Assembly: GCA_016927455.1 (NCBI GenBank)
Contig: JAFGMQ010000002.1
Coordinates: 1 to 37,989 of the forward strand
Direction: 5' to 3'
DNA length: 37,989 nt
DNA from: Deltaproteobacteria bacterium
Lineage (GTDB): Bacteria; Desulfobacterota; DSM-4660; Desulfatiglandales; Desulfatiglandaceae
The position numbers and the translations under genes are program-made. Under the pieces are notes generated by a model, which was not told the origin of the DNA, did no database searches, and saw nothing but the letters and a program-made list of their open reading frames with translations. Positions 173-36,965 of this stretch are shown piece by piece; position 1 is the first letter of the stretch, and every line of letters begins with the position of its first letter.

Positions 173-949
173 TTGGATATTACCACACTTATCGGAGTGA
201 TTGTTTCAGGCAGTCTGGTAATCAGTGCCATCATAATGGGCGGGCCGGCCACGTGGTTTATCAATCCTCCTTCCATTATGATAGTTGCCGGTGGAACAAT
301 GGGAGCAACCCTTATCAATTATCCCCTTTCCGAGGTGCTTGGTGTCTTTGGAGTGGCAAAACATGTTATTCTGCACAAGTCACAATCATTCGGAAAACTG
401 ATTGCTCTTATAGTTGATTTTGCAAAAAAGGCCAGGCGTGAGGGGATGCTTTCCTTTGAAGGGCAGCTGAAGGAAATAGAAGACCCTTTTCTGGTCAAGG
501 GCCTGCAGTTGGCAATAGACGGAATGGAATCCAACGCAATTGAGGCCGTTCTTACTACTGAAATTCAATCCCTGGAGGATCGGCACAAGCTGGGAGCAGA
601 GATTTTTACTACCATGGGTACTTACGCCCCTGCAGTTGGGATGCTGGGTACAATTATCGGGCTGGTACAGATGCTGATGCAGATGGAAGACCCAAGCCAG
701 ATCGGTGCCCCTATGGCTGTTGCACTGTTGACGACTTTCTACGGTACGCTGTTGGCAAATCTTCTCTTTCTGCCTATCGCAGGCAAGCTCAGGACCCGAA
801 GCAAGGAGGAAGTCTTAACAAAGCAGATGGTCCTCGAGGGGATTATTTCTATCCAGGCAGGAGATAACCACCGTATTGTTGAGCAGAAACTGAAGGCGTT
901 TATCCCTCCAAAACAAAGGCAAACAGTTGAAGAAACAAAGGAAGAATAA
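173..949 (+). CDS. motA: Flagellar motor stator protein MotA
   Basis: TTG start after AGGAGA RBS; MotA motifs APAVGMLGTIIGLVQML and TTFYGTLLANLLFLPIAGKL. Confidence 0.93.
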   Translation: MDITTLIGVIVSGSLVISAIIMGGPATWFINPPSIMIVAGGTMGATLINYPLSEVLGVFGVAKHVILHKSQSFGKLIALIVDFAKKARREGMLSFEGQLKEIEDPFLVKGLQLAIDGMESNAIEAVLTTEIQSLEDRHKLGAEIFTTMGTYAPAVGMLGTIIGLVQMLMQMEDPSQIGAPMAVALLTTFYGTLLANLLFLPIAGKLRTRSKEEVLTKQMVLEGIISIQAGDNHRIVEQKLKAFIPPKQRQTVEETKEE

Positions 950-973: not shown

Positions 974-1717
974 ATGAGAAGGAAAAAAAAAGGCGAAGAA
1001 GCAAATGCAGGACCTGGGTGGGAGATAGTATATACCGGATTTGTGCTTATCCTTCTATGCTTCTTTATTATGCTTTGCTCTTTCTCATCAATGGTGGATA
1101 CGAAGGTAATGCAATTCGTGTCGTCTTTTGTGAATACATTGAGCATATTCTCCGGTGGCATGGATTTTGAGCAGAGCAAGGTGGTGTTGCCGGATTCTCC
1201 GGATATTGTTGACGTGGAGAGCGGAATCGGCCAGATATTTCAGCAGATCGAAAAACTCATGAAGGATTTAGGAGTTGAAGGAGACATTGATCTGGTTTTT
1301 TCCGAAGAAGGACTGGTAATGAGGTTGTCTGATAATGTCCTGTTTAATCCTGGAGAGGCGGGGGTCTCTCCAGATGCCATTCCGCTTCTCATGAAAATAG
1401 GTTCGATAATTCAAAAGACCCCTTATGAAATAAGGATTGAAGGCCATACCGACAATGTCCCTATTAATACTGAAAGGTTTCCCTCAAACTGGTATCTGTC
1501 AACCGCAAGGGCGGTGAATGTGCTGAGATTTTTTCTGAAAAACGAAGATATATCACCTCAAAGATTGTCTGCAGTTGGGTTTGGAGAGTTTCAGCCGGTT
1601 TTTCCCAATGATAGCGCGGAACACAGGGCAAAGAACAGGCGGGTTGAAATTGTATTTGTCAGGTCGGAAGACATTTCATCCGCAGGTGAGGAACAGGGAT
1701 GGCAAGAAAAAAACTAA
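974..1717 (+). CDS. motB: MotB/OmpA-family protein (paralogue 1), lacks the TM Asp
   Basis: Single N-terminal TM helix plus OmpA-like peptidoglycan-binding domain (IEGHTDNVPINTERFPSNWYLSTARA...NRRVEIVF); TM motif WEIVYTGFVLILLCFF. Confidence 0.88.
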   Translation: MRRKKKGEEANAGPGWEIVYTGFVLILLCFFIMLCSFSSMVDTKVMQFVSSFVNTLSIFSGGMDFEQSKVVLPDSPDIVDVESGIGQIFQQIEKLMKDLGVEGDIDLVFSEEGLVMRLSDNVLFNPGEAGVSPDAIPLLMKIGSIIQKTPYEIRIEGHTDNVPINTERFPSNWYLSTARAVNVLRFFLKNEDISPQRLSAVGFGEFQPVFPNDSAEHRAKNRRVEIVFVRSEDISSAGEEQGWQEKN

Positions 1718-2424
1718 AACGAGAAGAGGGAGGAGAAGGCGGAGCAAAATGGCTTACCACCTTCAATGATATGATGACTCTCCTCATGGTCTTCTTTGTG
1801 CTTATATTTACAATGAGCAGCCTGAACGTTGAGAAGCTCAAGGGCTTTCAGAAGTCCCTTCGCAGCGGCCTCGGTATTTTAGATTCAGGCAGGATGGTAG
1901 CTGTAAAGCTTGTGGAACCCCAGTCCTTAATTGACATGGAAGGTCTGACTCTTAAAGATATCATGCTCAGTCAGTTAGTAGATATTAAGGACAGGCTGAA
2001 AAAAATCGGAAATGAGTTAGGCGTGGATGTTACATATTCAGGAAAAGCAGTAATCATAACTCTCAGGGATGCAGTTTTTTTTGATTCAGGAAAGGGGTAT
2101 ATTAACGAAGAGGCGTATCCGGTTCTGGATGATATTGCTGAAACAATAAGAAAGATTTCAAACAGGGTTAGAATTGAAGGCCACACTGATAATGTGCCTA
2201 TCAGCACCGGGAAGTTCCCTTCAAACTGGCAGCTTTCAACGGCCAGGGCCGTGAATGTCCTGAATTATCTGGTTGAAAAAGGCGGAGTGGACCAGGAGAG
2301 ACTTTCGGCAGTCGGATATGGAGAATCAAGGCCTGTTTTTTCTAATGACAATGCGGAAAAGAGGGCTAAAAACCGGAGGGTTGAAATCGTTATAGTGAAG
2401 GAGGCTAAGAAACAGGATGTCTAA
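1699..2424 (+). CDS. motB: Flagellar motor protein MotB (paralogue 2, canonical TM Asp)
   Basis: KWLTTFNDMMTLLMVFFVLIFTMSS TM motif with Asp24; OmpA-like C-terminus; overlaps the upstream gene by 19 bp. Confidence 0.92.
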   Translation: MARKKLKREEGGEGGAKWLTTFNDMMTLLMVFFVLIFTMSSLNVEKLKGFQKSLRSGLGILDSGRMVAVKLVEPQSLIDMEGLTLKDIMLSQLVDIKDRLKKIGNELGVDVTYSGKAVIITLRDAVFFDSGKGYINEEAYPVLDDIAETIRKISNRVRIEGHTDNVPISTGKFPSNWQLSTARAVNVLNYLVEKGGVDQERLSAVGYGESRPVFSNDNAEKRAKNRRVEIVIVKEAKKQDV

Positions 2425-2887
2425 AAAGATTATTATCATAGCAGGCTCAGCGTTCCTGGTTGTATTTATCGGCATGATTTTAGCCCTGACAATGATATGG
2501 AGCAAGTTAAACACCCTTGACAGGACAGTTAACCCGCCTCCTGTAGAGGAAGCGGAAGAGGCTGTAGAAGTAGTTGTACAGAAGATAGGGCCTATTTATC
2601 CGCTTGATACATTTATCGTTAATCTTGCCGATCAAGGGGGGAACAGGTATCTGAGGCTTTCGATCAGCCTTGAACTGAGGGATGAAAAGGTCAAAAACAA
2701 TGTGGATGAGAGAATCCCTCAGATAAGGGACAGTATTTTACTGATACTGCCGAATAAAACGGTTGATGATCTTAAAAGCAATGAAGGAAAAGGTGCCCTT
2801 CGAAATGAAATATCTGCGAGACTTAACGCTATGTTTCCTGCCGGGGAAATTGCCAACATTTATTTTACTGAGTTTGTAATGCAGTAG
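2417..2887 (+). CDS. fliL: Flagellar basal body-associated protein FliL
   Basis: TM helix plus YPLDTFIVNLADQGGNRYLRLSISLEL and C-terminal IYFTEFVMQ; position between motB and fliM. Confidence 0.9.
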   Translation: MSKKIIIIAGSAFLVVFIGMILALTMIWSKLNTLDRTVNPPPVEEAEEAVEVVVQKIGPIYPLDTFIVNLADQGGNRYLRLSISLELRDEKVKNNVDERIPQIRDSILLILPNKTVDDLKSNEGKGALRNEISARLNAMFPAGEIANIYFTEFVMQ

Positions 2888-24123: not shown

Positions 24124-24597
24124 ATGAGATACGTTGTTGGAGTAGGTGACATGAAGGCTGGGCAGAAAGGGGACATTATAGTCACCCATGCCCTTGGAAG
24201 CTGCCTCGGATTAATGCTCTATGATCCAGTGATGAAAATAGGGGGCATGCTGCATGCCATGTTGCCGTTATCAAAGATAAATATGGAAAAGGCTCAAGCC
24301 AATCCGTTCATGTTCGTTGACACAGGCGTGCCGGAATTGTTCAAGGCAATTTATAATATGGGTGGACTGAAGGGAAGGCTTATTGTCAAAGCTGCAGGCT
24401 GTGGTTCTCCTTTGGGAAATAACGAGATGTTTAAGATCGGGGAAAGAAATCATACGGTGCTGAAGAAGCTTCTCTGGAAAAACAGCATACTCCTCAAATC
24501 TGAGGACGTTGCAGGATCAAAAAGCCGAACGGTTCACTTTAATATTTCTACCGGCCAGGTAATAATAAGCAGCAACGGAGTGGAGACTGAGCTTTGA
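24124..24597 (+). CDS. cheD: Chemoreceptor deamidase CheD
   Basis: VTHALGSCLGLMLYDPVMKIGGMLHAMLP with conserved Thr/Cys/His. Confidence 0.93.
   Translation: MRYVVGVGDMKAGQKGDIIVTHALGSCLGLMLYDPVMKIGGMLHAMLPLSKINMEKAQANPFMFVDTGVPELFKAIYNMGGLKGRLIVKAAGCGSPLGNNEMFKIGERNHTVLKKLLWKNSILLKSEDVAGSKSRTVHFNISTGQVIISSNGVETEL

Positions 24598-25902: not shown

Positions 25903-25925
<23 letters not shown>
25524..25925 (+). CDS. cheY: CheY-like response regulator
   Basis: Receiver domain: NVLIVDDSGVMRAMI, LVVVDINMPVMNG, STEGS, KPF. Confidence 0.92.
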
Positions 25926-27524
<1,599 letters not shown>

Positions 27525-30212: not shown

Positions 30213-30677
30213 ATGAAAAAGGTGCTATTCATTGCTTTTTTTGATGTTATTTTCGTGCTTGTCTCATTGTCAGCAGGTTTATGCCTGAGCAGCCAGGATA
30301 TAATAACCCTGAAAAAGGCCGGAATAAATGATGAGACAATCAAAGTCATGATGGAAGAAAAGACTGTTGAGACCTGCGCATTTACAGTAAATGAGATTAT
30401 TGATCTCAAGAAAGCGGGAATAAGCAACGAAACTATTCAAATGCTTGTAAAGAGCGGCTCCTTTTTAAAGGACACTGAACCGGTAATCTACGGAAGGGAA
30501 GTAAAGTCCATCAAGTTCACTACGGCAGGGGATATAATTAAACTCAGGGAAGCTGGCTTGAGTGATGATGTTATAAGGGCTGTAATAATATATGGCTCGG
30601 GAAACAGCGATGATATAGAGCGTGAAAAGGCCTGGGAGATGCTGAAGAACATGGGTATAGTGGTTGATAAGCGGTAG
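30213..30677 (+). CDS. Secreted protein with three LKKAGI-type repeats
   Basis: Signal peptide then IITLKKAGINDETIKVM, IIDLKKAGISNETIQML, IIKLREAGLSDDVIRAV. ATG 30213 preferred to GTG 30201. Confidence 0.7.
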   Translation: MKKVLFIAFFDVIFVLVSLSAGLCLSSQDIITLKKAGINDETIKVMMEEKTVETCAFTVNEIIDLKKAGISNETIQMLVKSGSFLKDTEPVIYGREVKSIKFTTAGDIIKLREAGLSDDVIRAVIIYGSGNSDDIEREKAWEMLKNMGIVVDKR

Positions 30678-31194
30678 GAGTGTGAGCAGCGATTCAAACA
30701 GCATAGTAGCCTTGAAATATTTTCTTGATCCCGGATACATATTTGTGCCCAAAAAGCCAACAATCGTATCCATGGTGTTGGGATCGTGTGTATCTGTTTG
30801 CCTTTATGACGCAAAGAGGAAGGCAGGAGGAATAAATCATTTTCAGTTTCCCCACACTAATGAGAGACAAAATGCTACTGCAAGATATGGAAATGTTGCG
30901 ACAATTACACTCATCCGGATGATGTTGAATGATGGTTCAAAAAGAAAACACCTGGAAGCTCAAATTCTCGGTGGGGCAAACCATCCCGATATTTGTAACA
31001 AAAACATCGGCAGGCAGAACATTATGATAGCAAGAAAGATTCTGGCAAAAGAACGGATCAGCATTGTTTCTGAAGATGTGGGAGGTGAAAGGGGTAGAAA
31101 AGTAGTATTCAACACCCATACAAATGAAATGGCTGTCATTAAGGTTGAAAAGCTGAGGTCAGCTGACTGGTATCCCTATGAAAATGACCGATAA
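30664..31194 (+). CDS. Second CheD-family protein
   Basis: VSMVLGSCVSVCLYDAKRKAGGINHFQFP; SEDVGGERGRKVVFNTHTNE; TTG start overlaps the upstream gene. Confidence 0.87.
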   Translation: MISGRSVSSDSNSIVALKYFLDPGYIFVPKKPTIVSMVLGSCVSVCLYDAKRKAGGINHFQFPHTNERQNATARYGNVATITLIRMMLNDGSKRKHLEAQILGGANHPDICNKNIGRQNIMIARKILAKERISIVSEDVGGERGRKVVFNTHTNEMAVIKVEKLRSADWYPYENDR

Positions 31195-36671: not shown

Positions 36672-36965
36672 ATGACCGAGATAATTTTTGAGTGGGACAA
36701 CAAAAAGGATAAAACGAATAAAAGAAAGCATGGCGTTTCTTTTGAGGAAGCCCGGACAGCATTTTACGATGAAAATGCAATCCAATATTTTGATCCGGAT
36801 CATTCGGATGAAGAAGACCGTTTTATCCTGTTAGGTCTCAGCTACAAATTAAAAGTCCTGATTATTTGTCACTGCTTTCGAGAAAATGATTCAGTTATTA
36901 GGATCATTTCGGCAAGAAAGGCAGATAAAGATGAAGAATATGGATATTGGGGGAATAGAAGATGA
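36672..36965 (+). CDS. brnT: BrnT-family ribonuclease toxin
   Basis: FEWDNKKDKTNKRKHGVSFEEARTAFYDENAIQYFDPDHSDEEDRFILLGLS...RIISARKADKDEEYGY. Confidence 0.92.
   Translation: MTEIIFEWDNKKDKTNKRKHGVSFEEARTAFYDENAIQYFDPDHSDEEDRFILLGLSYKLKVLIICHCFRENDSVIRIISARKADKDEEYGYWGNRR

Follow-up and report, generated by a model that had tools for sequence, protein, structure and literature searches.

An Asp-less MotB paralogue in tandem with an Asp-bearing MotB behind one MotA, and the asymmetric flagellar stator they may form

The canonical flagellar stator is a 5:2 complex, MotA5MotB2 or PomA5PomB2. Cells with dual stators (MotAB together with MotCD or MotPS) contain two MotB paralogues, each of which carries an Asp and works with a separate MotA (PMC5380961 for MotPS). 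In Aquifex aeolicus, one motA is followed by two tandem motB genes, whose products have N-terminal and transmembrane regions that are 97% identical and periplasmic regions that are 23% identical; both transmembrane segments are functional, as they support motility in chimeras with the periplasmic region of Escherichia coli MotB (PMC4525482). The Myxococcus gliding motor AglR-AglQ-AglS likewise combines one MotA-like with two MotB-like proteins, in which the conserved Asp is predicted in both AglQ and AglS and the hetero- or homodimeric state is unknown (PMC9389320). Here we analyze a tandem motB pair, motB1 and motB2, behind a single motA in a 37,989-nucleotide stretch of DNA from a Deltaproteobacteria bacterium (contig JAFGMQ010000002.1; the window). 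The locus resembles the canonical stator in the PomA-type Thr triad of MotA, in the Asp, plug and OmpA-type domain of MotB2 and in the adjacent fliL. We propose, with a probability of about 0.5, that MotB1 and MotB2 pair inside one MotA pentamer to form an asymmetric, Na+-type stator with a single ion site.

The ion-binding position in MotB1 and MotB2

A phmmer search placed the MotB1 segment GWEIVYTGF opposite EWLATFSDT of Clostridium sporogenes MotB (6ysf/8ucs) and opposite SWLVPYADI of Bacillus subtilis MotB (6ysl), so that Gly22 faces the ion-binding Asp of the solved MotBs. Where MotB and PomB are recognized by an ion-binding Asp in the helix, MotB1 has Gly22, and only Ser, Gly, Ala or Asn is found across 43 orthologues. 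The earlier note had set Gly22 of MotB1 against Asp24 of MotB2, which proved right to the codon (Table 1), and had named a different acidic residue at the pore position, such as Glu17, as the finding that would overturn this assignment. Beyond Glu17 at its start, the single N-terminal transmembrane helix of MotB1 (residues 16–38) contains no acidic residue. Numbering helix positions from that of the ion-binding Asp (0), the alignment puts Glu17 at −5, a position occupied in the 43 orthologues by Glu (12), Gln (7), Ala (6), Val (6), Met (4), Ile (3) and others; because it is not conserved, Glu17 is ruled out as a replacement acid.

AlphaFold2, run on 38 MotB1s, gave a mean predicted local distance difference test score (pLDDT) of 83, with the transmembrane helix followed by a second helix at residues 42–59, a disordered stretch at residues 60–83 and an OmpA-type domain in which most blocks exceed a pLDDT of 94. 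Foldseek matched MotB1 to the periplasmic domains of MotS, DVU_2228 and PomB. By sequence and fold alike, Desulfovibrio vulgaris DVU_2228 (PDB 3khn) ranks with the nearest matches to the OmpA domain of MotB1 (41% identity, TM-score 0.83 by target), a likeness that covers the periplasmic domain only, the part that was solved. Among 38 MotB1 orthologues, Pfam OmpA was found in all 38 and MotB_plug in 32. Both proteins of the window keep an intact OmpA-like domain, as had been claimed, with Pfam scores of 65.3 bits for MotB1 and 84.5 bits for MotB2 at a cut-off of 27.2; the MotB_plug scores were 43.0 and 62.6 bits (cut-off 24).

Distribution and evolution of the tandem pair

We searched the window's family, its phylum, the phylum of a Nitrospirota hit and a wider genome-contig collection, and parsed the hits by script; in the wider collection, a single-sequence scan gave no match and an alignment-based scan yielded loci. 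The dataset comprises 49 distinct tandem MotB loci and three more first genes (L012, L018 and L221). The first genes carry Ser (16), Gly (15), Ala (11) or Asn (1) at the Asp position, giving 43 distinct Asp-less MotB1s, or Asp (7), and one is truncated; the second genes carry Asp in 48 of 48. The survey of the Asp-less paralogue in syntenic loci that the earlier note suggested is therefore strongly positive. An Asp-bearing MotB2 follows the Asp-less MotB1 in all 41 loci that are readable far enough; for the other two MotB1s (L012 and L018), the available sequence stops before a full MotB2 can be read. Among 145 stand-alone MotB entries, Asp is present in 139 of the 139 with a readable, genuinely single helix, and the apparent Asp-less entries are lipoproteins or fragments, together with the MotB1s L012, L018 and L221, the MotB2 of the last (WMFTFSDLVTLLLTFF) lying within an over-long frame. 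An Asp-less MotB as the sole MotB was never found among the 139 stand-alone MotBs, with the sequences of L012 and L018 ending after MotB1.

Asp-less MotB1s occur in 16 families of the window's phylum (f1, f2, f3, f6, f15, f18, f29, f36, f40, f41, f51, f58, f69, f72, f90 and f95) and in five Nitrospirota genomes. Fisher tests were extreme, but the loci are related by descent, and the spread over families carries more weight. Among named organisms, the locus is closest to metagenome-assembled genomes of Desulfobacteraceae, Desulfobacterales and 'Deltaproteobacteria'. In some members of family f1, a single MotB with Asp takes the place of the pair. The ratio of nonsynonymous to synonymous substitution rates (dN/dS) for MotB1 was 0.13, 0.16 and 0.09 in the three comparisons with finite dS, for MotB2 0.22 and 0.12, and for MotA 0.06–0.08; MotB1 is under purifying selection. 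The missing Asp in one gene of a tandem pair could be taken for a decaying duplicate or a sequence error without function. Considering the 43 orthologues, the purifying selection and the 0 of 139 stand-alone MotBs that lack Asp, sequencing error, pseudogene formation and chance are ruled out, and the occurrence in at least 16 families and two phyla, a dN/dS of about 0.1 and the intact domains make a functionless MotB1 extremely improbable. The lopsided pair is probably a real design, and the loci together make up a large class of natural stator operons whose pair of B subunits includes one member without the Asp.

In a tree built without the helix columns, MotB1s and MotB2s group mostly by type rather than by locus, indicating that the duplication predates these families. 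The Asp state requires at least five changes on this tree, three of them forced by starred branches. Both genes keep Asp in two motA-linked tandem loci, L158 and L209. The MotB1 of L209 (G107:C11:33000-37700) nests in the Asp-less clade (100*) yet carries an Asp-bearing helix, whose protein sequence is almost identical to that of the MotB2 helix at the same locus. The OmpA half of this MotB1 shares 63% identity with MotB1 of L169 and 35% with its own MotB2. We read this as a natural helix swap or reversion, and not a recent one, because the helix DNA is only 56/78 identical. Aquifex, with its near-identical transmembrane regions, may have undergone a similar event, and the two cases together suggest that MotB1 and MotB2 helices are able to occupy the same seat.

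Family f1 also contains a separate, motA-less tandem MotB type in which both genes carry Asp. Such a pair (for example WITTYTDLMTLLLTFF then WMVTFSDLSTLLLTFF) occurs in genomes of the window's family, at L224 (G304), L225 (G305), L226 (G307) and L227 (G326) and also at L132, L134, L137, L138 and L141. Neither motA nor fliL was found within the flanking sequence examined for these pairs, and the L226 pair adjoins a Der/EngA-like GTPase open reading frame (ORF). At L056:4695-6116 (Troglogloeales), the MotB2 frame has an extra OmpA domain N-terminal to the transmembrane helix, which would be cytoplasmic if the frame is really translated as one protein.

Helix residues and the composition of the stator

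Besides the Asp, MotB1 differs from MotB2 at the neighboring pore positions. At −3, MotB2 has Thr in 37 of 40 sequences and MotB1 mostly Val, Met, Ile or Leu; at +3, MotB2 has Thr or Ser in 34 of 40 and MotB1 Leu, Ile or Met in 38 of 43. By alignment these are the equivalents of T21 and S27 of PomB, where the side chains of T21 and D24 coordinate Na+ at the engaged site and S27 lies just above D24 (PMC10374538). With these residues lost in addition to the Asp, the polar pore face of MotB1 is wholly gone, which strengthens the claim that MotB1 should not conduct alone. The MotA pore is, judged by its residues, intact for a normal MotB2 Asp and of the Na+ type, as defined by Thr at PomA positions 158, 185 and 186 (PMC10374538). 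All 40 tandem-locus MotAs, that of the window included, have Thr at these three positions and keep the equivalents of P151, G154, G157 and G161, and the M155 position is Met (34) or Leu (6). The tandem-locus stators thus look sodium-driven.

The loss of all polar pore residues and the intact OmpA domain (38/38 by Pfam, with Foldseek in agreement) would also suit a MotB1 that does not enter the MotA pore and serves as a peptidoglycan scaffold tethered in the membrane, holding or recruiting MotA-MotB2 stators in the manner of MotY and the T-ring or other periplasmic scaffolds. A bare tether, however, would need neither the strictly conserved Phe at +9 (43 of 43) nor the Leu or Ile that MotB1 keeps at +4 to +6, and in L209 a conducting-type helix sits on a MotB1 body; we consider this alternative doubtful.

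The Phe at +9 is accompanied by Phe at +8 in 41 of 43 MotB1s. Its E. coli equivalent, F41, belongs to the coiled-coil core that joins the two MotB helices, together with positions −1, +2, +6 and +13 (PMC10659934). At +13 (W45 in E. coli), MotB1 has Cys, Asn, Ser or Thr and MotB2 has Phe, Leu, Ile or Tyr; the mean side-chain volume is 110 for MotB1, 181 for MotB2 and 193 for stand-alone MotBs; no other position of the helix differs as much. From this small-versus-large arrangement we infer a knob-and-hole pattern of the kind that a mixed dimer would favor. Evolutionary distances of MotB1 and MotB2 are correlated with MotA held constant (partial r = 0.56, 34 loci), and correlations with FliL are lower (0.21 for MotB1 and 0.24 for MotB2, 34 loci), which is supportive but weak evidence for a link between the two; a correlation of column conservation (r = 0.38, p = 0.07) was not used.

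The genome of the window (2.55 Mb assembly, 84% complete, which limits statements of absence) contains these two full MotBs, one flagellar-type MotA and one FliL. BLAST at 1e-5 did not match the other MotA_ExbB hits, on contigs C239, C62 and C162 (two), to the window MotA, and they were rejected as a second flagellar MotA; the C239 hit adjoins ExbD- and TonB-like ORFs. A candidate third MotB on C61 (L003, G000:C61) was also rejected, as it is a fragment at a contig end, has an Asp of its own and gives no BLAST match to MotB1 or MotB2. The fragment, truncated where the contig ends, has a MotB_plug-like helix, WSVPWSDLMMTMFVLFAVLYVYH, and is probably another OmpA/MotB-like envelope protein.

With one flagellar-type MotA to share, and with the FF motif, plug region and OmpA domain as features for the MotA seat, MotB1 could instead form homodimers with MotA, giving non-conducting units in the stator ring that are idle, load-bearing or regulatory (brake-like), while MotA5(MotB2)2 drives the motor. 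Half of the MotA would then be spent on dead units, and the strict pairing with motB2, the coupling of the two genes and the small-large complementarity better fit a mixed dimer; homodimers are unlikely, though they are the foremost of the alternatives.

The two genes are tightly coupled. In 38 of 42 motA-linked tandem loci, the start of motB2 lies no more than 30 bp from the stop of motB1, with overlap in 16; in the window, the overlap is 19 bp between motB1 and motB2 and 8 bp between motB2 and fliL. MotB1 might act as a titratable inhibitor, in which mixed or MotB1-only units cut stator output and MotB1 expression or turnover tunes speed. Such a role suits an Asp-less subunit on general grounds and is compatible with a mixed stator, but the gene order and coupling predict a near-fixed MotB1:MotB2 ratio with little transcriptional leeway, making it improbable.

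In the mixed stator that we prefer, a MotA pentamer would surround a dimer of one MotB1 and one MotB2. MotB2 would provide the sole ion-binding Asp, and MotB1 would take the second seat, its neutral helix keeping the dimer packing and its periplasmic part adding a second peptidoglycan anchor. The heterodimer, one of two options in the earlier note, has gained indirect support from the dimer-core Phe, the asymmetry at +13, gene coupling, co-variation and the fact that MotB1 is never the sole MotB, short of proof; the other option, a structural or regulatory anchor, we favor less. The symmetric turnstile model has 36-degree steps and 10 ions per turn; according to its authors, a count of 5 would call for a completely new model (PMC9389320). 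If only one Asp is present, the ion site would be met once per turn by each MotA subunit, so a mixed stator, if it turns, would use 5 ions in 72-degree steps, values obtained purely by inference. That MotA5:MotB1:MotB2 is an obligate heteromer with one ion site, moving about 72 degrees per ion and 5 ions per revolution throughout the Desulfobacterota-type families and Nitrospirota, is a tentative extension that we hold with less confidence than the pairing itself.

Several points weigh against a mixed stator. Its support is indirect and consists of sequence patterns, and a stator with one Asp does not follow the symmetric turnstile model (PMC9389320). The volume asymmetry at +13 also fits MotB1 homodimers whose contact is looser and polar. 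Rates can be correlated between paralogues of one fold that do not touch each other, and partial gene conversion would strengthen the effect. The several Asp changes on the tree mean that Asp in MotB1 is not absolutely excluded, and another stator may be absent from the 84% complete assembly. If the mixed stator is true, a natural one-site stator and its two-Asp relatives (L209 and L158) would make the number of ions per stator turn directly testable.

The operon and known systems

The window opens with a plus-strand flagellar operon, motA, motB1, motB2 and fliL, followed by fliM, fliN and export genes (Table 1). The adjacency of motB1 to motA is also seen in the tandem loci.

Table 1. Coordinates of the stator genes and their features in the window
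Feature	Position	Strand	Description
motA	173..949	+	258 aa, TTG start; PomA/MotA-type stator ring subunit; Pfam MotA_ExbB 107 bits
motB1	974..1717	+	247 aa; Asp-less MotB paralogue; Pfam MotB_plug and OmpA
MotB1 transmembrane helix	1019..1087	+	residues 16-38; AlphaFold2 helix and column analysis
Gly22 codon (GGA), ion-binding Asp position	1037..1039	+	
MotB1 Cys35	1076..1078	+	offset +13 from Asp position; equivalent of E. coli W45 in the dimer core (core per PMC10659934)
MotB1 post-transmembrane (plug-like) helix	1097..1150	+	residues 42-59; AlphaFold2, lower confidence there; MotB_plug match to residue 55
MotB1 OmpA-like peptidoglycan-binding domain	1340..1639	+	residues 123-222; Pfam OmpA, Foldseek
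motB2	1699..2424	+	241 aa; Asp-bearing MotB; start within motB1
MotB2 transmembrane helix	1750..1818	+	about residues 18-40, by alignment to MotB1 helix
Asp24 codon (GAT), ion-binding residue	1768..1770	+	
MotB2 Phe37	1807..1809	+	offset +13; large dimer-core partner of MotB1 Cys35 if the heterodimer forms
MotB2 OmpA-like domain	2077..2376	+	residues 127-226; Pfam OmpA 84.5 bits
fliL	2417..2887	+	conserved downstream neighbour; Pfam FliL 97.5 bits

Elsewhere in the window, two CheD genes (24124-24597 and 30664-31194; Pfam CheD 87 and 84 bits) and a CheX-like gene (25903-26403) lie in one motility region, and a BrnT-family ribonuclease toxin gene (36672-36965; Pfam 97 bits) is located near the window end.

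The present locus departs from each of its closest known counterparts at the same point. In contrast to the canonical stator, one of its two B paralogues has no Asp. Aquifex has near-identical, functional transmembrane segments in both MotBs, whereas in the present MotB1 the Asp and the polar residues next to it are gone, and AglRQS is predicted to have the Asp in both B subunits and belongs to a gliding, non-flagellar locus. We found no report of an Asp-less MotB in the open-access articles searched, which is not proof of absence elsewhere. A tandem motB pair behind one motA is thus already known, but an Asp-less B subunit is described for none of the canonical stator, Aquifex and AglRQS.
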